From positions 1 through 26,851 of the IMG/VR virus record IMGVR_UViG_3300043395_000829: a stretch of DNA of 26,851 nucleotides; one strand, written 5' to 3'. Both the position numbers and the translations under genes were made by a program. Below are positions 1 to 20,207 of this stretch, piece by piece (the first letter of the stretch is position 1; every line of letters begins with the position of its first letter). A model generated the notes under the pieces. It searched no databases and was not told the origin of the DNA. It saw only the letters and a list, made by a program, of their open reading frames with translations. This DNA is from a virus.

Positions 1-115
1 TGCCGATATGAACGCACATCATCCCGATGAGCGCAATCGCAATCACACATGCAGCTGCAATAAGCTCATCTTTATAGAAGTAGGTATTTCCTACGTGTAC
101 GATATTCTTTCTCAT
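1..115 (-). CDS. Small membrane peptide, partial at the window edge
   Basis: The reading frame starts with ATG at 113-115 on the minus strand and runs off the left edge of the window after 38 codons. The start overlaps the stop of the upstream gene as TAATG, so translation is probably coupled to it. The visible part has a short polar N-terminus (MRKNIVHVGNTYFYKDE) followed by a hydrophobic stretch, LIAAACVIAIALIGMMCV, that looks like one membrane-spanning helix. The product is therefore probably a small inner-membrane protein of the left-hand operon. No family is recognised and the C-terminus is not in the window. Confidence 0.55.
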   Translation of the reverse strand, partial: MRKNIVHVGNTYFYKDELIAAACVIAIALIGMMCVHIG

Positions 116-336
116 TACTTTGCTCCGATTTGCATGATGGTTGGTACTGCATCACCACCGTTAGGCAGTGAGCGAGCAGCGTCTGCGAGCTTCTCTCGCA
201 ACTGTGACTGGCTTACGATATAAACCTTCTGCTTGTTCAAACCGTTGGAATTCTCGACTGAGATCCACGTGTTTCCGTGCTCACCCGGCCACCACTTAGC
301 AAAGAGGCCATTGGCCTTGATCCATCCTTCAAACAT
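115..336 (-). CDS. Hypothetical protein, 73 residues
   Basis: The start is ATG preceded at good spacing by GAGGAGA, the strongest kind of ribosome binding site seen here. The product is a soluble small protein with an aromatic N-terminal half (GWIKANGLFAKWWPGEHG) and a helical C-terminal half (QSQLREKLADAARSLPNGG). I recognise no family. It lies downstream of a composite leader consisting of a tRNA-like minihelix (372-412) and a CCCC-AATA-GGGG hairpin (357-368). It is translationally coupled by TAATG to the membrane peptide that follows. The GC content is visibly higher than in the rightward genes. Confidence 0.65.
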   Translation of the reverse strand: MFEGWIKANGLFAKWWPGEHGNTWISVENSNGLNKQKVYIVSQSQLREKLADAARSLPNGGDAVPTIMQIGAK

Positions 337-371
337 ATCTCTCTCTCCTCAAACAACCCCTATTGGGGAAA

Positions 372-412
372 GGTAGTAGGGGAATCGAACCCCTACTAGG
401 CACCAGCCTACC
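372..412 (-). promoter_or_regulatory. tRNA-like minihelix 1 (acceptor/T-arm mimic) in mRNA leader
   Basis: Read on the minus strand, GTAGGGG and CCCCTAC form a 7-bp stem closing a TTCGATT loop, which is the canonical T-loop sequence of tRNA. The flanks GGTA and TACC pair outside it, giving about 11-12 stacked base pairs, the length of the tRNA acceptor plus T stem. The D and anticodon arms are replaced by a 12-nt linker. No CCA is encoded. It overlaps the stop codon of the upstream gene (complement 408-410). It is followed by a CCCC-AATA-GGGG hairpin (357-368) and the GAGGAG ribosome binding site of the next gene. Function is inferred; it could be an RNase P or RNase Z substrate, or a tRNA remnant. 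Confidence 0.6.
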
Positions 413-656
413 GTTTAAATCGTGCGACAGTGATCGGGTCATCTTCCCGATCAAATAGTGCAGAGCGACAGAGCTTGATGTCGTACTCGTCAGTGCTTGA
501 CCATGCTAGGCCAGCACCCTTGTACACACTGATCTTGTTGCGATCAGCGATAACCATGAGTCCGGAGTAAGCGAACTTACCCGGCTCTGTTGTTACCGTG
601 TTGTCAGCCGTAAGTTTGCCAGACTTTATGGCCGAAACGATATTCTTAATCTTCAT
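408..656 (-). CDS. Hypothetical protein, 82 residues
   Basis: The ATG start overlaps the stop of the upstream gene (TAATG), so it is probably translated by reinitiation. The protein begins with a lysine-rich helix (MKIKNIVSAIKSGKLTADN) and continues with short strands (FAYSGLMVIADRNKISVYKG), ending in a basic tail (VARFKR). No catalytic motif or known family is recognised. Its stop codon lies inside the tRNA-like element that follows, so folding of that RNA and termination of translation would compete with each other. Confidence 0.62.
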   Translation of the reverse strand: MKIKNIVSAIKSGKLTADNTVTTEPGKFAYSGLMVIADRNKISVYKGAGLAWSSTDEYDIKLCRSALFDREDDPITVARFKR

Positions 657-982
657 TACTTCTCCTCAATATTGATAGTCCATCCAAGATGAATGGCTAA
701 CGCCCTGTCTACAAACACTGTGACCCATCGGCCCTTACGGTCAAGGCCTACCGCTATTGCTTGCCATTCGGCTTCCTCGTTGTAGATGAGGTTGATAGGC
801 GATGTGCAATACAGCACTGATGGGATGTTGCGCCATGTCACTGGCACATTACGACGAGTGTCGATTTGCAAGGCACGATGATTCATCTTAATCATTGCCT
901 TTTTGTCGGTTTCGCAAACATGTTGCGGAGGGATATTAATCCCTTGTGCAACATTTGCAAAGTATGTTTCCGCTGGTGTCAT
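656..982 (-). CDS. Hypothetical protein, 108 residues
   Basis: The start is ATG with GAGGAG a few bases upstream. The protein has no recognisable family. It contains a predicted beta-rich middle (NVPVTWRNIPSVLYCTSPINLIYNEE) and a C-terminal part, WQAIAVGLDRKGRWVTVFVDRALAIHLGW, that looks like alternating strands and a helix. The gene follows the second tRNA-like leader (1014-1053) and its CCC-AATA-GGG hairpin, and couples by TAATG to the next gene. Small genes of this kind in a separate leftward operon are often early host-takeover genes, but nothing in this sequence proves that. Confidence 0.65.
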   Translation of the reverse strand: MTPAETYFANVAQGINIPPQHVCETDKKAMIKMNHRALQIDTRRNVPVTWRNIPSVLYCTSPINLIYNEEAEWQAIAVGLDRKGRWVTVFVDRALAIHLGWTINIEEK

Positions 983-1013
983 TCTTTCTCCTCAAACGTT
1001 CCCTATTGGGAAA

Positions 1014-1053
1014 AGGCAGCTAAGGAATCGAACCTTAGTAAACCAGTCTGCCT
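1014..1053 (-). promoter_or_regulatory. tRNA-like minihelix 2 in mRNA leader
   Basis: On the minus strand AGGCAG pairs with CTGCCT (6 bp, acceptor-like), and inside it CTAAGG pairs with CCTTAG (6 bp) around the T-loop sequence TTCGATT. A 9-nt linker replaces the D and anticodon arms. Together the stems give exactly 12 bp, the acceptor-plus-T-stem length of a tRNA. Every stem base differs from or is compensated relative to element 1, while the loop is identical, which argues for selected RNA structure. It is followed by a CCC-AATA-GGG hairpin (1001-1010) and the sequence GTTTGAGGAGA, also shared with element 1. Confidence 0.65.
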
Positions 1054-1059
1054 AGATAG

Positions 1060-1085
1060 TGGTGCATTTTGCCGGAGATGCACCA
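1060..1085 (-). other. Strong hairpin upstream of tRNA-like element 2
   Basis: TGGTGCAT and ATGCACCA form a perfect 8-bp stem with a 10-nt loop on the minus strand, between the stop of the 1114-1473 gene and the tRNA-like minihelix. There is no U-tract, so it is unlikely to be a classical terminator. Its place fits a 3'-end stabiliser for the upstream mRNA if the transcript is cut at the minihelix. Confidence 0.6.
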
Positions 1086-1113
1086 AACTCCCAGATTGTC
1101 AATCGATGAGTTC

Positions 1114-1473
1114 TTAGAACTCGTATTTGGACGATGCGCTTGCATTGCGGTTGAAGTCCGCAATACGCTGAGCAACCGTGTCAAGTTGCTTGCGCTCCTT
1201 GACTGCCATGTATTCGCCGGTGCCAAACTTCTCCAACTCAGCAAGTGCCCAGTCGAGCATTTCGAGTTGGTCTGGGTTAGCGAACAGCTCAATTGAACCG
1301 TCAGCGACCTTCTGCTCAATAAGAGCATTGGCGCGCTTCACGTCGAACAGCTTCTGGCTTTGAAGGGCCTTTGCAGCCGTGTAGATGAGACCATTGACGG
1401 TCCCAGCCTTCACGACTTCACGGCGTAAGACGACGCGGTCAACCGACGCTGCCAACAATGTTTCGATAGTCAC
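1114..1473 (-). CDS. Hypothetical protein, 119 residues; first gene of the leftward operon
   Basis: The start is GTG at complement 1471-1473, chosen because TAGGAG lies about seven bases upstream. The product is predicted to be almost entirely helical and charged (for example ALQSQKLFDVKRANALIEQK and LEMLDWALAELEKFG), with no membrane segment and no recognised domain. As the first gene after the divergent control region it should be the best expressed of the operon. Its leader holds a chain of overlapping hairpins (1492-1541) and the third tRNA-like structure, so expression may be controlled at the RNA level. Codons are richer in G and C than in the rightward genes. Confidence 0.68.
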   Translation of the reverse strand: MTIETLLAASVDRVVLRREVVKAGTVNGLIYTAAKALQSQKLFDVKRANALIEQKVADGSIELFANPDQLEMLDWALAELEKFGTGEYMAVKERKQLDTVAQRIADFNRNASASSKYEF

Positions 1474-1491
1474 TTTAGACTCCTACATAAT

Positions 1492-1541
1492 GCCTGTGTG
1501 TATAGGGACAGGCTCCCCGTGTCCCTGCTTGCTAGGCAGGG
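1492..1541 (-). promoter_or_regulatory. Chain of mutually exclusive hairpins in 5' leader
   Basis: On the minus strand three 6-bp stems can form just before the ribosome binding site of the 1114-1473 gene. They are CCCTGC/GCAGGG (1523-1528 with 1536-1541), GGGACA/TGTCCC (1505-1510 with 1520-1525) and GCCTGT/ACAGGC (1492-1497 with 1508-1513). The first and second share the bases at 1523-1525, the second and third share 1508-1510, so neighbouring stems cannot form fully together. This is the layout of an attenuator or switch. The first stem also competes with the outer helix of the tRNA-like element at 1539-1613. Ligand or trigger unknown. Confidence 0.45.
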
Positions 1542-1613
1542 TATGCCCTTCACATGGACTCGAACCATGACACCGCAGGTCAACAGACATTGGTGGTACC
1601 TACAAGGACACCC
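1539..1613 (-). promoter_or_regulatory. tRNA-like structure 3, tRNA-sized
   Basis: On the minus strand the T-arm CATGG-TTCGAGT-CCATG (1553-1569) is enclosed by an outer helix of GGGTGTCCTT with AAGGGCATACCC. This gives 10 pairs, two of them G-U, with one bulged C. Between the 5' outer strand and the T-arm are 34 nt that can form a small arm (CACC with GGTG). The total length of 75 nt is that of a tRNA, but no normal D-arm or 7-nt anticodon loop can be drawn and no CCA is encoded. It is either a decayed tRNA gene or a functional mimic like the two shorter elements nearby. Confidence 0.45.
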
Positions 1614-1640
1614 AAGCATGGCGCAGAATGCACCGCTTGG
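1612..1640 (-). other. Long bulged hairpin before tRNA-like element 3
   Basis: On the minus strand CCAAGC pairs with GCTTGG, and inside it GGTGCA pairs with TGCGCC (one G-U) around a 3-nt loop, with a 2-nt bulge. This 12-bp structure sits directly upstream of the third tRNA-like element, the same order (hairpin, tRNA-like, hairpin, ribosome binding site) as around element 2. Function unknown. Confidence 0.5.
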
Positions 1641-1976
1641 AATAGGAGATTGACTATCTAGGATAGAAACTTGGCTGTCAGGCACAGACCATCGACAAGG
1701 TGTATTCACAAACTGTGTTCAGGATTATCCGACTCGCTCGGTTCACGGACTAGAATGTCCGCGCGCAGTTCAGGATGATACAGCGTGGCTGACAGCCAAA
1801 GGACATGGTAGACATCGCCTAACCATGCCTAATAATACTGAGGGGACCTTATACGACCCGTCGCCCACCTACCCACCCCCCGGTTCCCTAGCCAACCCCA
1901 CCCGGCAAGCCCCTGCCCCCCTCCTATCCGACCCGTTGGGGCCACCACTACCCATAAACTCTTTCTTCCAAATAAC

Positions 1977-5176: not shown

Positions 5177-5257
5177 GCTCCGGTGGTGAAATGGTAGACA
5201 CGACAGACTTAAAATCTGTTACCGCAAGGTGTACGGGTTCGAGTCCCGTCTGGAGCA
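5177..5257 (+). tRNA. tRNA-Leu (anticodon UAA)
   Basis: The acceptor stem GCTCCGG/CTGGAGC has one G-U. The D-arm contains TGGTGAAATGGTAGACA and the anticodon arm is ACAGA-CTTAAAA-TCTGT with anticodon TAA. The long variable arm (ACC-GCAA-GGT) is typical of leucine tRNAs, the T-arm is ACGGG-TTCGAGT-CCCGT and the discriminator is A. CCA is not encoded. It reads UUA, a codon common in the AT-rich genes here. The 3' end is only a base from the ribosome binding site of thyX, so tRNA processing would set the 5' end of the thyX mRNA. Confidence 0.97.
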
Positions 5258-8534: not shown

Positions 8535-11500
8535 ATGGCATCTTTTCGTTCTTTATTATTAGGCAATCCAGCAGAAACTGATAAGGAAAAAGTAGACAAG
8601 GCTATGGTAGGGCAAGGTGCCCCTGCACCAGCCGCTGCAGCACGACCTATACCTCCTGCTCTACCAGTAAATACAGAAATAAAGGGTGATCTTAATGTAT
8701 CTCCCGGTGGTGTTCCACGACTAGTTAAAGCGCGAATTGATAGTGTACTTGCAAAAAATCCTGATGACGAAAAAGAACTGCGTCGTTTAATTGCGTCTGG
8801 AGCACCTAAAGAAGAAGTTAATAAGATTGCAATGCCTATATTTCAAAGACTTGGCATTGCAAAGTTTGCTACAACATCTGTAGATCCATTTGAATTCTTA
8901 AAAGCGTCAACGCCAACTATGCCGGGACCACGTGCTGCGCAATTAAGTGATATTGAAGAACGTAAGGGCCAACAACAAATAGGGCAAGTTGATACTGAAG
9001 ATTTAGTTACCCGTGGTTTATACGCAACAGGAGAAACAGTATCGCCTAATGTATATACGCCAGTACAAAAAGTAAGGACTGGTGGTAAAGCAGATGGAAA
9101 TAAACGTACTGCTGTTAGTGGCACATCATCATTCTCAGGTTCAATGGATATCGATGCATTCATTGAACGTGCTACACCAGAGATTACTAGTATTGCAGAA
9201 CGTACTGGTCGTCCTGTAGACGTAGTCATTTCTGATATTAAAACTAAGATTGCCGGAACACGTGAAGCAGTAGGTCAAGCTTCTGCTGCATACGACAAAT
9301 TACTAGAACAAGTAATAAATGCAAAAGCTAGTGGTGACACAAGAGGAAAAGTTGATGTTGTAGATTCCGGTAATGTTGGTGGTGCAAAATCCATGGAAAC
9401 GACAATGGATTTTTCACGTATGCCACAGGGTAATTCTGCAATATTAGGAATTATTTCTAGATCTATTGGAAATCAATCAGCAGGATCATTTTTACGAACA
9501 TATTTAAACAAGCCATCTATTGACCGAATGAATGTCATTACAAGGACAGCTGCCGATCTTGGTGGTGGAACAAAAAATACTCAAGTGTCAGCAGATGCAG
9601 CTCGCTATATTGAAGGAGTGGCACAAGTTTATAGCAGTGCAAGTGGAGCTACTCGTACAGCTATTGCTGATGGATTTGGCAACTTAGTAACCTTAAATGG
9701 CCTATTGTCAGATCCTGCAAATGGTGTGCCTAAAAATATTCAAGAAGAATACATGACTAAGGCGCAGGAATTATTTGACAGCACCTTGCGTCAAGCTGGT
9801 GAATTTGGTGCTGGAAAACGTCTGACATCTAAACTTATTGGGCAGGACACATTAGCCAACCTTATGCGTAAGGGTTTAATTGGTTGGTTGCAAAACGGAA
9901 ATACGTATGAAGAATATCAAAATTTAAAGGTTGCAAACAAAGATTTAGAAGACTGGGCTGAAGAAGGTCGTGTTACCGTACAAGATGTAACACGTAAATT
10001 TAAAGAAGAAGTTATAGGTGCAGCGCGAGCTATTGTACTCAAACGCATCGGTGATGATTTTGATAAAAAATACGCTGGTACTGCCGTCGGTGGTAAACAA
10101 CAGGCTGTACTTGGGTTAGTTGAGGCACTGTTTAAAGCAAAATCGCCATTTATGTCTGCGTTAGAAGACAACGTAGGAGATTTAGCAGAAAAGGGTTTGT
10201 TGTCTCAAACATTTGGGTCTGGAAACAAGAGTGCTGTCCAGTTAATGGAAGCAATGAAAACAGGAACGCAAGTAGGTAAAGCCGGTGCTTTGGTTGACCC
10301 TGTTACCGGAAAATCTGTTTCTGGCCCAGCCGTATCTGCAGCTCAGCGACTTGATGTTGCTAATGCAGTCGAACAAATTACTAAACTTGATTGGTTTGGT
10401 AGTGGTACAGGACAAGATCCTAACTCTCCTGCAGCTCGTGCTTTTGAAGCTCGTGTAAAACAAGCAACTGCAGCATTATTACAAAACCCACCTGACTGGG
10501 GTGTGTTTGCTCGTAAGATTTCTCCATATGCAACGCCTGATCAGCTAAAGCTGATGCTTCCATTAAACGTTGCTAAAACTATAGCGCGTAATCCATATAG
10601 ACCAAGTGCCGTTGGTCCTGACGGAAAGCCAATTGAGAGAACTTATGACCGAGAAGGTATCTTGCAAGAAAACCTTGTAAGAAACCTTGCACGTCTTACA
10701 CGTTCTAAGGTTTCCTTTACAGAAGATGGCGACATCCAAATTAAATCAAAGGGAATGGAAGGTGAGTTCTTACTTGATGATGCCATTAACCAGTTAAAAA
10801 CACCTGCTGTTCAGGACTACGTTAGTAAGATATTTAAGCCATTAGCTGCTGCCGATCCAGCTATTGCTGCAGCAAATAAAAAATCTCCATATGACTTTAG
10901 GCAGCAATTATTAACAATTGCATCAAATCAAGCTGCTGGTTCTCCTAAATTCTGGACAGACCTTATGAGGTTAGCTCCAAAGGATTCGCAGTTGCTTACT
11001 ACGTTTAGGGAGATGCGTGGTGGCAACGTAACTACAAGTGCCACAGATGTAAGAGACGCTAATTTACCAGAACGTTTAAAACAAAGACGTGCTCTGCTTG
11101 ATGTGCAAGGCGCATTAATTAAAGAAGCAAAATTAACTGAAATGAACGTCGATGTTCCAGAAACCGTACTAAGTTTCATACGGGGATATCGAAAATTTGG
11201 CGTGTCGCCATATATGATTAATGCTGATGGAACTATTGGTAAAGATAGTCCAGCTCGTCCCGGAGCTGCACCTCCAGAAAAACGTTTGCCATCAGGACCA
11301 ATCAATTATGAAATTTATTCTCCTGAAGGATTGATGGAGAAAATTAATCAAGATCCACAAGCATGGGATAAGTTTGTAAAAGACGCAGCACGTTTGGCTG
11401 TGGCATATGAACGCCAAGAACTTACTGATGAATTGGCTGGTACATCTGTAAGAAGAGCTATTCAAGGCATGGGCGTACGTCAGGCTGCAAATGCTATTGA

Positions 11501-12719: not shown

Positions 12720-13275
12720 AACACCTTTAGGTAAAACGGTAAGAAAGACACTCCCATTAGCAGCAAATCTAATGGGGGTAATGCCATATGTTGGTGGCAT
12801 TGATGCAACATTGCGCGGATTAGCATCAGATGATCCATCAGAAAGAGAAAAAGCAGTTACATATGGTTTGTCGCAAATAGGTGGAAATGCACTGCAGGAT
12901 TATTTAACTGCGCAATTTACTGGTGGTGCTGCTCCATATATTAATCTTGGTATTGATAGTGCATACAATATGTTTGGTGACTACGAGTTAAGAAAACAAA
13001 TTGAAGATGATAATTCAATAGTAAATAACAATCCTGATGCAGTAAATCGAGCAATGTGGTTAAAAATGTATGGCCCATTATTACAACCCATTGCAAAACA
13101 AATCGTAGAAAATCCTATGTATGAAAAAGGATTGACTGGAATTTCTAAATTTGGAGATGCAATAAATACGCCGGTTAAATTTGCAACACCAGCTATACAT
13201 GCATTAGCCGACTTATTTACTGGAAAACCTCAACAAAATAAAATTCCACCGAAAAAACAACCTATTAAAAAGTGA
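12697..13275 (+). CDS. Hypothetical protein with hydrophobic N-terminal half, 192 residues
   Basis: The start overlaps the end of the large gene by 23 bases; ATG 12703 in the same frame is an alternative. Residues about 18-45 (LPLAANLMGVMPYVGGIDAT) and 70-100 (SQIGGNALQDYLTAQFTGGA) are rich in small hydrophobic residues with Gly, as in proteins that can insert into or cross membranes. The C-terminus is basic (KIPPKKQPIKK). No family is recognised. Translational coupling to the 1394-residue protein suggests the two act together, for example as ejection proteins. Confidence 0.68.
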   Translation: MEMQQKSKTPLGKTVRKTLPLAANLMGVMPYVGGIDATLRGLASDDPSEREKAVTYGLSQIGGNALQDYLTAQFTGGAAPYINLGIDSAYNMFGDYELRKQIEDDNSIVNNNPDAVNRAMWLKMYGPLLQPIAKQIVENPMYEKGLTGISKFGDAINTPVKFATPAIHALADLFTGKPQQNKIPPKKQPIKK

Positions 13276-14013: not shown

Positions 14014-15742
14014 TATTGGCAAATCGCTAACACCTCGCAAATTAAAGCCATTTATACAGTCAGGTAAATCATTATCAGTAAGTTTGCTTCAAGCCCTTGA
14101 AGATGAACTTGACACAACTTTGCAATTAGGCGATTTTGATAGTGGTAAAGCAATACCTATTAATGGCGCAGAGTTAGATTATAAACAGTGGCTGCGGTCT
14201 TATGCTAGGCATGCAGCTAACGCAGATTTAGCAGAACATCATATACGTGCATGGGATTGGGCTGAAAAACTTAAACCCGGCGCGTCAGCTCCAGCGTTAA
14301 TTGAATGTTGGTTTCGCGGTGGAGGTAAATCAACAACTGTTGAACTTATTATCTCTAGATTAGCAGTTAAAGCTACACGCCGGTTTGCTCTGTATGTATG
14401 TCATACACAAGATGCTGCAAATAGGCACGTTAATGATATTGCAAGTGCCATGGAAAAGTGCGGGATTGAACGAGCAGTAAACCAATATGGATTTTCAAAA
14501 GGATGGAGTGCAAGTAAACTCCGTACGGCAAACGGATTCAACGTTCTTGCGTTTGGTTTGGATACCGGCGCTCGCGGTGTCAAGCTTGATCATTTACGTC
14601 CTGACATCATTATTTTTGACGACATTGATGAGCTTGATGACTCTGTTGATAGAGTTGAGAAAAAGATTAAAACGATGACTGCAACAATCCTTCCAGCAAG
14701 AAGTATTGATTGCGCAGTTATATTTGTCCAGAACGCTATTCATAGCAACAGTGTAATGACACGTACTCTGTCTGGCGAAATTGACATGTTGCAAAATCGT
14801 ATTCAATCTCCAAAGGTACCAGCTATATGGGATTTGAAATACGAACCATGTGAGCGTGATAACGGTCGTGTCGGTTATAAGATTACTGGTGGCACTGCTG
14901 CATGGAAACACAAAAGTATAGAGGTCTGCCAAGATGAGATTGACACATTTGGATTAACCTCATTTTTGCGTGAATGCCAACATGAGGTTGGTGTTGGTGG
15001 TAGGTTCTTCCCACAGTTTAAGGAATTTGACAGCGAGGGAAATCCATGGCATGTCGTTGACCATGTCGAAATACAACCTTGGTGGAGATTCTGGGCAAGT
15101 CACGACTACGGTACTGGCGCACCAGCATGTACATTGTTATTTGCATCTGATGAGAGAGAAAATGTATATCTCCTGTCTGAATGGTATGAGGCTGGTCATG
15201 TTAGTTCTAGTCAGGCTAATGAAGTAGCAAAAATGCTTGAGCAGTTTGAATTAGCTACGTGTGTTTCTAAAGAGCGTAATCAATGGGCTACTAAACTTGA
15301 AGCAATTGCATTTGACTGGGCTAATACTTTTCCACCAGCAAAGATAGAAGAACGTATTGGTGAATACCCTGTTGAAGTTTGGTGGAATATGGGATTGCCT
15401 TGTGTTCGCGCAGTCAAGGATCGAAAAGCAGGATGGGCACAAATGAAAGAGATGCTAGATGCATCTGAATTTGTTGCCGGTAAACGCAGACCTAAACTTC
15501 AGATAGTTCGTGGAAAATGCCCAAACATCATCAAGCAGTTGGAAAAAACAATGGCTTCTCCTAGAGATCCAGATGAAATTGACAACGGCACTAAAAACGA
15601 CCACGCAATTGACAGTATGAGGTATGGGGCTATGTGGAGAAAATATCCAGTAGAATGTCCTGAGATTAGATCTGAAAGAATTCGCAATAGAGAAAACATG
15701 CCGAATTGGATGAATGAACGTCAATCAAAGGATTGGATTTAA
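14003..15742 (+). CDS. terL: Terminase large subunit, 579 residues
   Basis: This is the DNA-packaging motor and nuclease. Walker A is RGGGKST (105-111) and Walker B is DIIIFDDIDE (201-210), whose last acidic residue should be catalytic. A C-terminal RNase-H-type nuclease is shown by ASHDYGTG (365-372; Asp368), AFDWAN (436-441; Asp438) and NDHAIDSMRYG (532-542; Asp537). The length is normal. It starts inside the end of the small subunit gene (11-base overlap), so the two subunits should be made in coupled amounts. It acts at the portal vertex to fill the prohead. Confidence 0.95.
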   Translation: MKSSIGKSLTPRKLKPFIQSGKSLSVSLLQALEDELDTTLQLGDFDSGKAIPINGAELDYKQWLRSYARHAANADLAEHHIRAWDWAEKLKPGASAPALIECWFRGGGKSTTVELIISRLAVKATRRFALYVCHTQDAANRHVNDIASAMEKCGIERAVNQYGFSKGWSASKLRTANGFNVLAFGLDTGARGVKLDHLRPDIIIFDDIDELDDSVDRVEKKIKTMTATILPARSIDCAVIFVQNAIHSNSVMTRTLSGEIDMLQNRIQSPKVPAIWDLKYEPCERDNGRVGYKITGGTAAWKHKSIEVCQDEIDTFGLTSFLRECQHEVGVGGRFFPQFKEFDSEGNPWHVVDHVEIQPWWRFWASHDYGTGAPACTLLFASDERENVYLLSEWYEAGHVSSSQANEVAKMLEQFELATCVSKERNQWATKLEAIAFDWANTFPPAKIEERIGEYPVEVWWNMGLPCVRAVKDRKAGWAQMKEMLDASEFVAGKRRPKLQIVRGKCPNIIKQLEKTMASPRDPDEIDNGTKNDHAIDSMRYGAMWRKYPVECPEIRSERIRNRENMPNWMNERQSKDWI

Positions 15743-15879: not shown

Positions 15880-18242
15880 GAAAATCGCTTATTGATCCTA
15901 GTAAGTTAGCCAACATGTTACGTGGCGGTGTTCAAAAAGCTGAGATGACAGCGTTTAAAGTTCCTGAGCATCAAGGAACAATAGGCGCACAAAAACTGAA
16001 TAATCCAAAGTTAAATGAATCAGAAAACTTAAATTTAGATCAAGAAGAAAAAGACTGGGAAGTATTACCTGCAGAAACACCTGCGGAAGCAATGAAAGTA
16101 TGTGACTTTGTTAAAGGTCAATTTGAAACTGCACAACGTGCTAGACAAGAAATGGAAACTGAATGGGCACTTTCAGTAGCCTTTTTTGAAGGCCGACAAT
16201 GGTTTAGAATTAACAGTAACGCTCGTAATCTTGTGAGGTTACAAAACCACAAAGAGCCAACACGTTATGTTGTTGTAAACAAAATGCGTCCGCTTATTGA
16301 TGGAGTTGTTGGCAAGCTTACGCAAGGAAGCCCAGACGCTAGTGCTGTGCCACTATCTGAAAATGATCGAGATCGCGCAGCAGCGGATGAGGCCAACTTT
16401 ATCATTAAGCATTACGCGAAGAAGTTTGGACGAGAAACACAACTAAAAGAACGTGTTCGCTGGGCATGCGTATGTGGCACTAGCTATTTAAAGATATTTT
16501 GGGACAGTAATAAAAGTCAAGTTGTTCCACTTTACGATGTTTCTGGTCAGGAAGTAGTTGGCCATAAACAATTCGATGCTGGAGATGTTGTTGAGCAAAT
16601 CCTACCAGCATTTGATGTTTATCTTGATCCTACAGCTAAGCAAGACGATGATGTGCGCTGGCTTATTCATGCAATGGTTAAACCGTTGAGCTGGTTTGTT
16701 GACTCATACGGTGAAATCGGAAAGCGGGTAAAAGCAGATGCACTCACCGGACACAATGCTAGTTATGTGGACAATTATCTTGATGGCGCAGCAGGAAGCG
16801 GATTCGGATACACAAATCCAACACCAGCAAGACAGACAAGTTACGATGCAAGAAAACATGCTGCAACTGTGTACGAATATTGGGAAAAGCCTAGTGCTCT
16901 TTATCCTAAAGGTCGTTACATAGTATCTACGAACTCGCAACTTCTTTATGCTGGTATCTGGCCTTATGAGAAGCGTGACTCATTCCCATTTATTCCCTTG
17001 CGATGGCAACCACGAGCAGGTACTCCATACGGATACAGTCTTGGCTTTGATCTTACGCAGCTACAGTTAATGTACAACAGGCTGTGGTCTAAACTCCTTG
17101 AGCAATTTGAGGGACAAAAAGACTACATCATGGTCGAGCGACTTAGTAAAATTGGTGCAGATGCGTTCGACAATAAGAGTGACACCATTGATGATGCAAA
17201 CCGCGTATACCGAAAAATTTACTATGATCGTGGATCACAACCGCCACAGATTGTAAGGTCTCCGGGTGTCGGCAGTGACATCTTTCCAATACTTCAATTT
17301 ATTGAAAAGGATATGGCAGATGTAGCTGGGTTACATGATGTTAGCCAAGGTATGGCTCAAGCTGGTACACCAGCTGAAGCAGTACGGTTGTTGCAAAAAG
17401 CTGATAACACACAACATTCGTTTGTTCGTGCTGACATAGAAATTAGCAACTATAAAATTAAAGAGTGGGAAGTATCACTCGTACAGCAGTTTGCTATTGT
17501 TCCATTTGTAGGAAATATGCAGGAAGAAAACGCCCCAAGCGACCAACTCAAACAAGGTGTTATGCGCTTTGACGCTATTCGTAACGGTGGCCAGTTTAGG
17601 ATTGTATATGTTCCGGGATCTGCTATGGATGATGGCCCAGAAGCTAGGTTGCAGAAATATGCAACGCTCCGCCAGATGGGAGTATTCGGAGATCCAGCTG
17701 ATCCAGATACAAATAAGTTGTTCATTGAGTTAGTAAATATGCCAGAGGCATCTAAGATCCTCAATCATTTAGAAGAACAACAGAACAAGATTAAGCAAGC
17801 CCAAATGCAACAACAAGAAATGATGCAAGCGCAAATGGAAATGCAAGCTCAGTCTCAGCAACAACAGCAGCCATCATTTGATATAGAAGCTGAGCAAGCA
17901 AAGGCTGAAATAGAAATTGCGAAGAAACGTGCAGAGATTCAGGCAAAGCTAGAGGCAGATATTACTCTGTTGACAGCTAAGGCTGGTCTTGAGTCGCAAG
18001 ATGAGCCAGATGACATGGAATCTGGCTTAGGAAGCACGGGTAGGATGATGGGTATGGGTGAACCACAGCTAAGGCCTCCAATGCCAGAAATGGAAGAAGA
18101 ACTACCTGAAAGGGATATGTTCAATCCAGACGAGGCACGTCAAGCAATTATGCAACGACAACAAGGAGGCGGAATGCCAATGGAGCAAGCCATGCCTATG
18201 GAAGACGTTGGCACAATGCAAGAAAATGAGGGTATATTGTAA
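15876..18242 (+). CDS. Portal protein (P22-type), 788 residues
   Basis: The portal forms the dodecameric ring through which DNA enters and leaves the head. Residues 70-220 (FFEGRQWF, VVNKMRPLIDGVVGKLTQGS, WACVCGTSYLKIFWD) and the later stretch GMAQAGTPAEAVRLLQKAD match the P22-type portal family. Size fits this large class (around 700-800 residues). The C-terminal 160 residues contain a Gln/Met-rich segment (about 628-668) with a long helix, as expected of a portal barrel, then an acidic Met/Pro-rich tail. It directly follows terL and precedes the scaffold and capsid genes. It is usually associated with short-tailed phages. Confidence 0.92.
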   Translation: MRKSLIDPSKLANMLRGGVQKAEMTAFKVPEHQGTIGAQKLNNPKLNESENLNLDQEEKDWEVLPAETPAEAMKVCDFVKGQFETAQRARQEMETEWALSVAFFEGRQWFRINSNARNLVRLQNHKEPTRYVVVNKMRPLIDGVVGKLTQGSPDASAVPLSENDRDRAAADEANFIIKHYAKKFGRETQLKERVRWACVCGTSYLKIFWDSNKSQVVPLYDVSGQEVVGHKQFDAGDVVEQILPAFDVYLDPTAKQDDDVRWLIHAMVKPLSWFVDSYGEIGKRVKADALTGHNASYVDNYLDGAAGSGFGYTNPTPARQTSYDARKHAATVYEYWEKPSALYPKGRYIVSTNSQLLYAGIWPYEKRDSFPFIPLRWQPRAGTPYGYSLGFDLTQLQLMYNRLWSKLLEQFEGQKDYIMVERLSKIGADAFDNKSDTIDDANRVYRKIYYDRGSQPPQIVRSPGVGSDIFPILQFIEKDMADVAGLHDVSQGMAQAGTPAEAVRLLQKADNTQHSFVRADIEISNYKIKEWEVSLVQQFAIVPFVGNMQEENAPSDQLKQGVMRFDAIRNGGQFRIVYVPGSAMDDGPEARLQKYATLRQMGVFGDPADPDTNKLFIELVNMPEASKILNHLEEQQNKIKQAQMQQQEMMQAQMEMQAQSQQQQQPSFDIEAEQAKAEIEIAKKRAEIQAKLEADITLLTAKAGLESQDEPDDMESGLGSTGRMMGMGEPQLRPPMPEMEEELPERDMFNPDEARQAIMQRQQGGGMPMEQAMPMEDVGTMQENEGIL

Positions 18243-19124
18243 ATGTCCGAAGAGATGGTGATGCGAACCGCTGACTCACCAGCAGCGGCGACGGGCGAAA
18301 CAAGCGTTGGTTCTGCACTAATTGATCATGTACGTCAGGCCGCCACTGGCGATAATCAGGAATGGGCGTTAAACGATTCTGAAGGTCAAGCGTATGCAGA
18401 AGCCGATGGTGACGACAATTATGACGAAGAGTGGAATGCTGCTTTAGATCTATATAGCGCTGAAGAAGAAGTTCGTCAGCGACTTATGGATAATCTAGGT
18501 AGAACTGAGCCTGAAGCTGTTCCTTATGAAAGATTCAGGGAAGTTAACGAGCAAGCCAAAGTTGGACGCGAAGTTCAGTCTAAGTATGACCAATGGGCAG
18601 ATGTAATCAGGCAGTTTGAGGAAAATGGTTTTAGCTCAGCTGATGATGTACGGAAAGCACTAGAGGCTCAGCAAGAACAACAGTATGAACAGCAAATTCG
18701 CGATAAATGGTTAGCTGCTCAAAATGATCAGTATCTTGATCCACAATTAGCAGAAGCACAAGCTGAAGCTGAAATCACGAAATACAGATACGAAAAACTA
18801 AATCAGCAAGTCAATGGCGTTTTGATGCAACAGCAGCGAAATGCTGCATTCACAGAATTTCCATATGCTCGTAGAGCCACTCAAATGGTAGACAACCTAA
18901 TGAATGCAGGTATGTCTCCACGTGAAGCTGCTCAACACGTCCATAATCAAGTTGAAGGCCTAATTGAAAGCATGGTGCCTGAGTTGGCAGAAATGGTTGC
19001 TAAGCAACGACGTGCTCCTACTCCAATTAGTACAGCTGATTCAGCTCAACCCGTAGTCCGCCAAACTGAACCTGTTCGCCAGAGTTCAAGTGGCATATTC
19101 TCAAGAATGCTTGGTATTCGATAA
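18243..19124 (+). CDS. Scaffold protein (by position and composition), 293 residues, MLGIR tail
   Basis: It lies between portal and major capsid genes, begins directly after the portal stop, is very acidic in the first 100 residues (AYAEADGDDNYDEEWNAALD), and is Gln-rich and helical from about 110 to 210 (LEAQQEQQYEQQIRDKWLAA). All this is typical of phage scaffolds. Known scaffolds bind the capsid protein through a short basic C-terminal element; here the end is SSGIFSRMLGIR. The same ending occurs in the proteins at 2591, 3389 and 8066, which suggests that they use the same capsid contact. No protease motif is present. Confidence 0.82.
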   Translation: MSEEMVMRTADSPAAATGETSVGSALIDHVRQAATGDNQEWALNDSEGQAYAEADGDDNYDEEWNAALDLYSAEEEVRQRLMDNLGRTEPEAVPYERFREVNEQAKVGREVQSKYDQWADVIRQFEENGFSSADDVRKALEAQQEQQYEQQIRDKWLAAQNDQYLDPQLAEAQAEAEITKYRYEKLNQQVNGVLMQQQRNAAFTEFPYARRATQMVDNLMNAGMSPREAAQHVHNQVEGLIESMVPELAEMVAKQRRAPTPISTADSAQPVVRQTEPVRQSSSGIFSRMLGIR

Positions 19125-19136
19125 AGGAGGCCTTAA

Positions 19137-20207
19137 ATGGCTATTGACTTTAACGGTGCTTTGACCCTTGCAGATCAGGCGATTTTATCGAACGATCCTA
19201 TGGTCAAGGAGATCACCAAATCTCTTCATCAAACGTGGAATGCAGTCAAAGACATCCCATTCTACACATCCCCATCGTTACGCCAGATTGGTCTGCGCTA
19301 CACGAACTCTGGTATTCCGACTCCTACGTGGACTGGAATTAACTCACAGCCACAAGCTGTAAAGGGTAAGCCAAAGTCGTATGAAGAACAGATGTTCTTA
19401 ATGCGCAACATGATTACTGTTGACCACGTTCTTCTTGATCAGCCAGACGCAATTGTTGATCCAGTAGATGCTCAGGTCAAGATGTTCATGGAAGGTTTTG
19501 CGTATGACTTCAATGACAAATTCGTAAACAACGACCCTACGAGTTTAGTTGCTGGTAATACTCCTGACTGTTTCCCCGGACTTAAGTATCGCCTTGACAA
19601 CTGGCAGCAGTTTGATATTGCATCTGACATGAACATTGCATCCAGCGCAAACATTGAATTTGGCAACTTGCTTGCAGCTTCATCTGCAACTGCTGGATCT
19701 GGTGCTGCAAACCGTTTGATGCACGATATCCAAAACCTTTTTGACAACATGTCTGCTCCAGATGGCGATGGAATTGTTCTTTATATGAACGAGCAAACGA
19801 AGCGCCATTTTGAAATGGCTATTCGCGTCATGGGACTTGGTTCTGGTTTTGATACAACTCAAGATAACTTTGACCGTCCTGTAGAACAATTCAAGAACGC
19901 AAAGGTACGCGTTGTGGGACGTAAGGCAGATGGTCTAACTCCTGTCATTCCAACGAACGTAACTGTTTCTTGGCAAGACTCGGCTGGATCAACTGTTTCC
20001 GTTGCAAACGCTACAACCATTTATGCTGTACGTTATGGCAATGGATATCTTGAAGGATGGCAACCAAAGCCGTTAAAGCCTGATTACCTCGGTAAGTCAC
20101 AGGAAAATGGAATTATGCACAATGTCCTATTTGAATGGGGTTGTGGCTTAATGGCACAGAACACTCGCGCTATTGGTCGCTTGGGTGTCCGCATTGCTAA
20201 TCCGTAA
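19137..20207 (+). CDS. Major capsid protein, 356 residues
   Basis: AAGGAGG lies seven bases before the ATG, the strongest ribosome binding site in the head module, as expected for the most abundant virion protein. Length and position after the scaffold fit an HK97-fold capsid subunit. Seen features include an N-terminal helix region (MVKEITKSLHQTWNAVKDIP), an extended loop (YTNSGIPTPTWTGINSQPQA), a central domain with LYMNEQTKRHFEMAIRVMG, and a C-terminal strand-rich end (NTRAIGRLGVRIANP). No N-terminal delta domain is fused, which agrees with a separate scaffold gene. Confidence 0.9.
   Translation: MAIDFNGALTLADQAILSNDPMVKEITKSLHQTWNAVKDIPFYTSPSLRQIGLRYTNSGIPTPTWTGINSQPQAVKGKPKSYEEQMFLMRNMITVDHVLLDQPDAIVDPVDAQVKMFMEGFAYDFNDKFVNNDPTSLVAGNTPDCFPGLKYRLDNWQQFDIASDMNIASSANIEFGNLLAASSATAGSGAANRLMHDIQNLFDNMSAPDGDGIVLYMNEQTKRHFEMAIRVMGLGSGFDTTQDNFDRPVEQFKNAKVRVVGRKADGLTPVIPTNVTVSWQDSAGSTVSVANATTIYAVRYGNGYLEGWQPKPLKPDYLGKSQENGIMHNVLFEWGCGLMAQNTRAIGRLGVRIANP

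Follow-up and report, generated by a model that had tools for sequence, protein, structure and literature searches.

Putative anticodon-less tRNA-like structures ahead of phage genes as candidates for tRNA punctuation of operons

On the minus strand of the window, i.e., the whole stretch of 26,851 nt analyzed here (IMG/VR virus record IMGVR_UViG_3300043395_000829), the genes starting at 336 and 982 are preceded by similar arrays of tRNA-like parts, which raises the question whether these arrays represent chance resemblances, remnants of DNA-level events, or functional RNA leaders. A sequence-only reading had described them as two composites with the same order of parts. Both are present on the minus strand and consist of the following features (TLS, tRNA-like structure; SL2, the hairpin behind it; bit scores and E values refer to the covariance models R1 and R2 introduced below):

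372..412, minus strand: TLS copy A, called from sequence (R1 52.2 bits; R2 E 4.2e-5)
408-412/372-376, minus strand: acceptor-like helix of TLS A, GGTAG (412-408) with CTACC (376-372), 5 bp
Between GGTAG and TAGGGG, minus strand: linker of TLS A, GCTGGTGCCTAG, with TGGT at 402-405
390-395/377-382, minus strand: T-stem of TLS A, TAGGGG/CCCCTA, 6 bp
383-389, minus strand: T-loop of TLS A, TTCGATT
357..368, minus strand: SL2 of copy A, CCCC-AATA-GGGG, beginning 3 nt past TLS A
344..354, minus strand: GTTTGAGGAGA of copy A, containing the Shine-Dalgarno sequence GAGGAG (350-345)
115..336, minus strand: gene under composite A, 73 aa, N-terminus MFEGW, ATG at 336
408..656, minus strand: gene upstream of TLS A, 82 aa
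1015..1052, minus strand: TLS copy B, called from sequence (R1 42.0 bits; R2 E 1.4e-9)
1048-1052/1015-1019, minus strand: acceptor-like helix of TLS B, GGCAG (1052-1048) with CTGCC (1019-1015), 5 bp
Between GGCAG and CTAAGG, minus strand: linker of TLS B, ACTGGTTTA, with TGGT at 1042-1045
1033-1038/1020-1025, minus strand: T-stem of TLS B, CTAAGG/CCTTAG, 6 bp
1026-1032, minus strand: T-loop of TLS B, TTCGATT
999..1012, minus strand: SL2 of copy B, TTCCC-AATA-GGGAA
987..997, minus strand: GTTTGAGGAGA of copy B, containing the Shine-Dalgarno sequence GAGGAG (993-988)
656..982, minus strand: gene under composite B, 108 aa, ATG at 982
1114..1473, minus strand: gene upstream of TLS B, 119 aa, whose stop ends 61 nt ahead of TLS B

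In both copies the acceptor-like helix is followed by the TGGT linker, the T-stem, the TTCGATT loop, a spacer, the AATA-loop hairpin, GTTTGAGGAG, and the start codon. The stems differ between A and B yet pair, and the loop and the ribosome-binding parts are constant. Of the 11 to 12 bp proposed earlier for the stacked helix, 11 bp are found in both copies, and 12 bp are reached solely by an optional further A-T pair in copy B. The TAG stop codon (410-408) of the 82-aa gene falls within GGTAG of TLS A. Allowing up to one mismatch, GGTTCGANTCC occurs four times in the window, including the true tRNA-Leu (5177-5257), which is the only tRNA called there by ARAGORN and Rfam; in shuffled sequences the mean was 0.6 and four occurrences were never reached. 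Folded on their own, the window pieces have unremarkable minimum free energies (z -1.1 and -1.0), and nearest-neighbor folding of copy A favors an extended T-hairpin together with a small additional hairpin (-19.1 vs -12.2 kcal/mol). Due to these weak z-scores and the competing fold of lower energy, the structure needed a comparative test, and the predicted acceptor helix of copy A rests on family covariation rather than on energy.

For this comparison, model R1 (type I) was built from 13 sequences obtained by IMG/VR pattern scans, none of which stems from the window, and model R2 from 34 type II sequences of other phages only. R1 matches both window copies, the cyanophages Syn5 and S-TIP28, and several copies each in window-related contigs. 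The second type, with the loop AACGGTTTTC, came to light in Mycobacterium phage Indlulamithi, and R2 finds 10-15 copies each in Indlulamithi, Fowlmouth, Papyrus, and record G017 (68,869 bp), as well as matches in a low-GC phage (L090) and a few Bacteroidota genomes. Two more scans, together with a search by R2, added 169 matches in 71 loci, including Mycobacterium phage Konstantine and Streptomyces phage Endor1; the non-redundant set comprises 215 distinct copies from phage contigs and a few bacterial contigs. R2 finds both window copies as well, so that the tRNA-like minihelix proposed for them was recovered twice without the help of window sequences. Judged by sequence comparison, these independent models exclude a chance origin of the window copies.

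The family was opened up by the pattern scans and not by BLAST, which returned nothing when the window region and 12 kb of the window were compared to cultured phages. A strict hairpin-plus-Shine-Dalgarno pattern led to a single contig, because the position of SL2 is kept and its sequence is not. The strict type I pattern had no match in 84,980 bacterial and archaeal genomes, and R2 matched 3 out of 148 genomes of one Bacteroidota order. Due to this small number of genome matches, the TLS is not a general cellular RNA and R2 does not simply pick up tRNAs. Pattern matches in loci L001, L002, L006, and L007 and in Clostridia, Nitrospira, and Pseudomonas genomes were rejected as chance or ordinary tRNA/tmRNA. 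In two contigs (2856677671_000002, L163, and 2795385840_000013, L078) TLSs recur every ~100-115 nt in GC-rich repeats, unlike the arrangement in operon gaps.

Compensatory changes are present in related phages, and thus the covariation claimed from two copies is borne out by the family: pairing is kept while both sides change in 8 out of 11 pairs of type I (99.0% of cells paired in the model-fitted alignment; 99.3% and 6 out of 11 on a MAFFT alignment) and in 10 out of 11 pairs of type II (99.7% paired), percentages that are partly given by construction, as the hand-picked sequences (A1-A3) came from a geometry scan demanding pairing. How numerous and varied the compensatory changes are is not given by construction, and neither are the model matches outside each model's own training set; the type II scans put no constraint on the stems. 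A further set of 86 distinct sequences yielded 99.8% paired cells and compensatory changes in 10 out of 11 pairs (model-fitted). Slid controls reached a pairing of 28-59%, and the type II covariation score was 1.04, compared to at most 0.24 for slid versions. RNAalifold, unprompted, predicts the same type II structure.

The near-invariant positions are those of the tRNA elbow, i.e., GG, TTCGANY, and G53-C61. The linker GG occurs in 212 out of the 215 non-redundant copies, and the T-loop reads T (214), T (212), C (210), G or A (214), and A (212), a conservation partly owed to hit selection, as models and scans demanded a T-loop-like core and GG. The family thus carries the tRNA-type T-loop TTCRANY with G53-C61 and a D-loop-like GG. 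The next unpaired nucleotide is A in 159 out of 215 copies, and CCA at 74-76 is found in two. By analogy to tRNA, the linker GG could dock on the T-loop as in the elbow, and because nearly every linker has this GG, the TLS as predicted goes beyond the minihelix of the sequence-only reading, in which neither the GG nor a probable eroded third copy near 1569-1523 (see below) had been mentioned.

Most type II copies are arranged in the order stop codon, TLS, SL2, Shine-Dalgarno sequence, start codon, with a clear mode of 6-10 nt between the upstream stop codon and the TLS, and a composite leader with fixed part order, as suggested for the window, is common to related phages. SL2 begins 2-5 nt past the TLS in 51 out of 53 type II copies with a hairpin. 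Its score is 8.69 in type II, compared to 2.23 in dinucleotide shuffles (maximum 2.99), and its arms vary among copies, with 98.5% pairing to the own partner vs 42% after swapping, although the shuffle is the fairer control as the SL2 detector picks paired arms. In window-like type I elements, copy A among them, stop codon and TLS start frequently overlap (+1 or +5). In case of Syn5 and S-TIP28, a single copy without close SL2 is situated in the gap ahead of the major capsid gene; Syn5-type elements lie 87 nt past the previous stop codon and >100 nt from the next start codon, with SL2 absent or displaced.

This placement leaves room for a translation element, which we consider rather unlikely: the uncut TLS would fold at the mRNA entry of a ribosome just terminated upstream and SL2 would set access to the ribosome-binding site, whereby the TLS might insulate or couple translation of the neighboring genes or recruit ribosomes or tRNA-binding factors. 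The unusually tight distance of 6-10 nt from stop codon to TLS, the overlap of both in some type I copies, the ribosome-binding site directly behind, and a CUUU(U)CCC strand in both window copies that can pair with the Shine-Dalgarno region in place of SL2 are in agreement with such a role. It leaves unexplained, however, why the elbow positions are conserved and why SL2 begins 2-5 nt past the TLS, and the type II flanks lack evident sequestration of the Shine-Dalgarno sequence, the folds ending before it.

Orientation follows the genes throughout. In the stretches examined, all copies of Konstantine (7 out of 7) and Endor1 (9 out of 9) occupy intergenic gaps in gene direction, and Papyrus and Fowlmouth together have 26 sense and no antisense copies. 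The RNA of HK022 put acts as an antitermination signal, and restriction to the sense strand with repetition along long gene runs of one direction would suit a nascent TLS RNA that antiterminates or counteracts Rho; as a 3' cap, possibly after CCA addition, the TLS might also protect upstream mRNA ends, which suits copies with the stop codon inside the TLS. We regard these transcription or 3'-end functions as improbable, since one copy per gene gap and the link to the downstream ribosome-binding site indicate a leader role, and a homology block shared with phage locus L003 joins the TLS with the downstream gene.

This block, which comprises gene 115..336 and its TLS, ends exactly at the TLS boundary at 412, and a block shared with L004 does so at 1052; therefore the TLS leader seems, on sequence grounds, to travel together with its gene. 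Phage attP sites often contain tRNA 3' ends, and exact block ends could likewise mark tRNA genes in decay, remnants of attachment sites, or boundaries at which shuffled gene cassettes recombined, all of them DNA-level elements without RNA function. This explanation is disfavored and appears very improbable to us considering the marked compensatory change over >100 distinct sequences, the fixed orientation and the fixed spacing to stop codon and ribosome-binding site, and up to ~15 copies per genome whose different stems leave no shared att core. Correspondingly, attP tRNA fragments were dropped as candidates, as stems differ among copies of one genome and covary.

In some mycobacteriophage copies the linker contains an additional arm, a stem-loop at the place of the anticodon arm, which occurs in the gaps 10748-10898 and 16238-16491 of Indlulamithi (L042) and 14858-14979 and 19028-19210 of Fowlmouth (L099); in their predicted structure these copies are a bridge to the full tRNA shape. 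Around 2285-2319 of L005, CCCC-AATA-GGGG stands 3 nt behind a seemingly complete tRNA (Arg, TCT, by eye), with a start codon farther downstream, as though a genuine tRNA took the place of the TLS; this is a single case from a search that demanded the hairpin core. Papyrus (L100), with its ~15 TLS copies, also encodes a GOLLD RNA (RF02032, E 8e-52) at 26838-27297.

With regard to known RNA classes, no TLS was called as a tRNA by ARAGORN and Rfam, which reported true tRNAs only (tRNA-Leu of the window and tRNA-Gln of Indlulamithi and Fowlmouth), and the cloverleaf with anticodon arm that defines tRNA (RF00005) is lacking. Likewise, Rfam returned no TLS match in the window (E up to 1) or in Indlulamithi, Fowlmouth, and Papyrus (gathering threshold), and neither program called a tmRNA in the window or the eight loci scanned. 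The TLS resembles the tRNA-like domain of tmRNA (ssrA) in its acceptor and T-arm, reduced D-loop, and missing anticodon arm, and the type II core ACGGTTTTC..GGTTCGATTCC was seen by eye at some tmRNA-like 3' ends of Clostridia and Nitrospira. In contrast to tmRNA, it is contiguous, ~40 nt long, lacks CCA and an mRNA-like part, and is repeated between genes. Plant RNA virus tRNA-like structures (TYMV) share the viral mimicry of the tRNA elbow but are located at the genome 3' end and contain pseudoknots, whereas TLSs are internal leaders in DNA phages.

In mitochondria, RNase P and RNase Z free mRNAs at tRNAs situated between coding regions. The TLS likewise places a tRNA structure between coding regions, but it is non-decoding (no anticodon) and followed by a hairpin and a Shine-Dalgarno sequence, and its cleavage is only proposed. 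RNase P cuts phage M3 RNA, the C4 antisense RNA of P1/P7, and T4 gene 32 mRNA (PMC11143913), which are single loci, whereas the TLS is a repeated, covarying family of operon gaps with a near-canonical T-loop. Among published phage elements, the SAS/ESAS of cluster K phages come closest; they are repeats in runs of non-structural genes, located in the gaps directly ahead of start codons. Their sequence is conserved, and the authors found that deviations in the arms are in general not in favor of RNA pairing (PMC3203893); in case of the TLS, stems vary and pairing is kept. SAS/ESAS traits (GGGATAGGAGCCC, 17-bp imperfect inverted repeats) were not seen by eye in the composites. TLSs are unannotated in the phage records examined, and no description of them was found in the open-access papers searched. 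There is a fair chance that the TLS, a kind of tRNA-like structure or tRNA punctuation, deserves a class of its own.

As to function, we hold it rather probable that TLSs mimic tRNAs without an anticodon and are cleaved by RNase Z and/or RNase P of the host, so that downstream mRNAs start with a protective 5' hairpin. The TLS would be a tRNA mimic cut down to acceptor helix, D-loop-like GG, and T-arm between the genes of a single transcript, on which we infer that elbow-clamping tRNA-maturation enzymes of the host act. RNase Z handles CCA-less pre-tRNAs and cuts right past the unpaired nucleotide following the acceptor helix, and its cut would create a new 5' end directly at SL2 or a few nt ahead of it; RNase P may cut at the 5' base of the TLS where the stop codon is 6-10 nt upstream. 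A 5' stem-loop (ompA-type) stabilizes mRNA. In the same manner SL2 at the new 5' end would hinder 5'-end-dependent decay and leave the ribosome-binding site open, and the upstream mRNA would end shortly past its stop codon or be capped at its 3' end by the retained TLS. In this way, one transcript would provide the phage with separate, individually stable mRNAs, and no nuclease of its own would be needed.

The elbow is recognized by RNase P RNA, the flexible arm of RNase Z, and CCA-adding enzymes (PMC4810234), and for RNase P the D-loop is dispensable whereas the T-loop or a similar element is required (PMC4919913). The features read by these three are kept in the TLS, and those for decoding and aminoacylation are missing. 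The predicted shape of an RNase Z substrate is given by the acceptor/T-arm minihelix with conserved elbow, and the occurrence of CCA in just 2 out of 215 copies fits RNase Z rather than processing with an encoded CCA. Concerning RNase P substrate traits, the stack has 11 bp (sometimes 12), A73 and C74 are common and C75 is not, and a leader of 6-10 nt past the stop codon is available in most type II copies and absent from several of type I. Where the upstream stop codon is part of the 5' strand of the TLS, as in copy A and several of its type I relatives, an RNase P cut at the 5' base would yield a non-stop mRNA, which argues against obligatory RNase P cleavage; for these copies a 3'-side cut is more likely, or else late or partial 5' cutting. 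Counting against processing are the stack of 11 bp compared to the 12 bp of tRNA, the absent or displaced SL2 of Syn5-type elements, and the competing fold of copy A. That TLSs constitute a widespread new phage RNA class, punctuating operons so that host tRNA-maturation enzymes release individually hairpin-capped mRNAs, we give an even chance.

In phages that are in daily use with M. smegmatis and S. coelicolor, one gene after another has a TLS as its leader module, which tRNA finders and Rfam overlook. If TLSs are processing sites, phages without a known processing nuclease borrow tRNA enzymes to split long operons into mRNAs. Well-studied Mycobacterium and Streptomyces phages would then have their own version of the tRNA punctuation of mitochondria, and TLSs could serve as short, portable insulators between the genes of synthetic operons. 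TLSs also help to correct start codons, e.g., of Indlulamithi gp53 and Papyrus gp78, whose annotated starts are overlapped by the TLSs at 12758-12797 (L042) and 35972-36011 (L100), respectively; the true starts are probably situated downstream, past the Shine-Dalgarno sequence.

Further elements are located near the window copies:

1523..1569, minus strand: probable eroded third composite upstream of gene 1114-1473, without R1 or R2 match
1569-1553, minus strand: T-arm of the third composite, CATGG-TTCGAGT-CCATG
1541-1523, minus strand: hairpin of the third composite, CCCTGC-CTAGCAA-GCAGGG (CCCCAC/GTGGGG in L004 and L008)
1061..1099, minus strand: conserved element immediately upstream of TLS B, predicted hairpin GGTGCAT-CTCCGGCAAA-ATGCACC

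The non-coding region of ~430 nt upstream of gene 1114-1473 (1474-1911, minus strand), which contains the eroded TLS-like T-arm and the covarying hairpin, has no Rfam match and is conserved in L004 and L008 with 72-76% identity across blocks spanning the region; possibly it is a larger structured RNA or control region. The element at 1061-1099 shares 97% identity over 37 nt with L031 (10494-10530) and is present in L003 and L008 too. Around GGGAGTTTGGTGCATCTCCGGCAAAATGCACC, this 37-nt element directly precedes a TLS in four phages, and the surroundings in L031 differ from those of the window. It may form a pseudoknot between its loop CTCC and an upstream GGAG.
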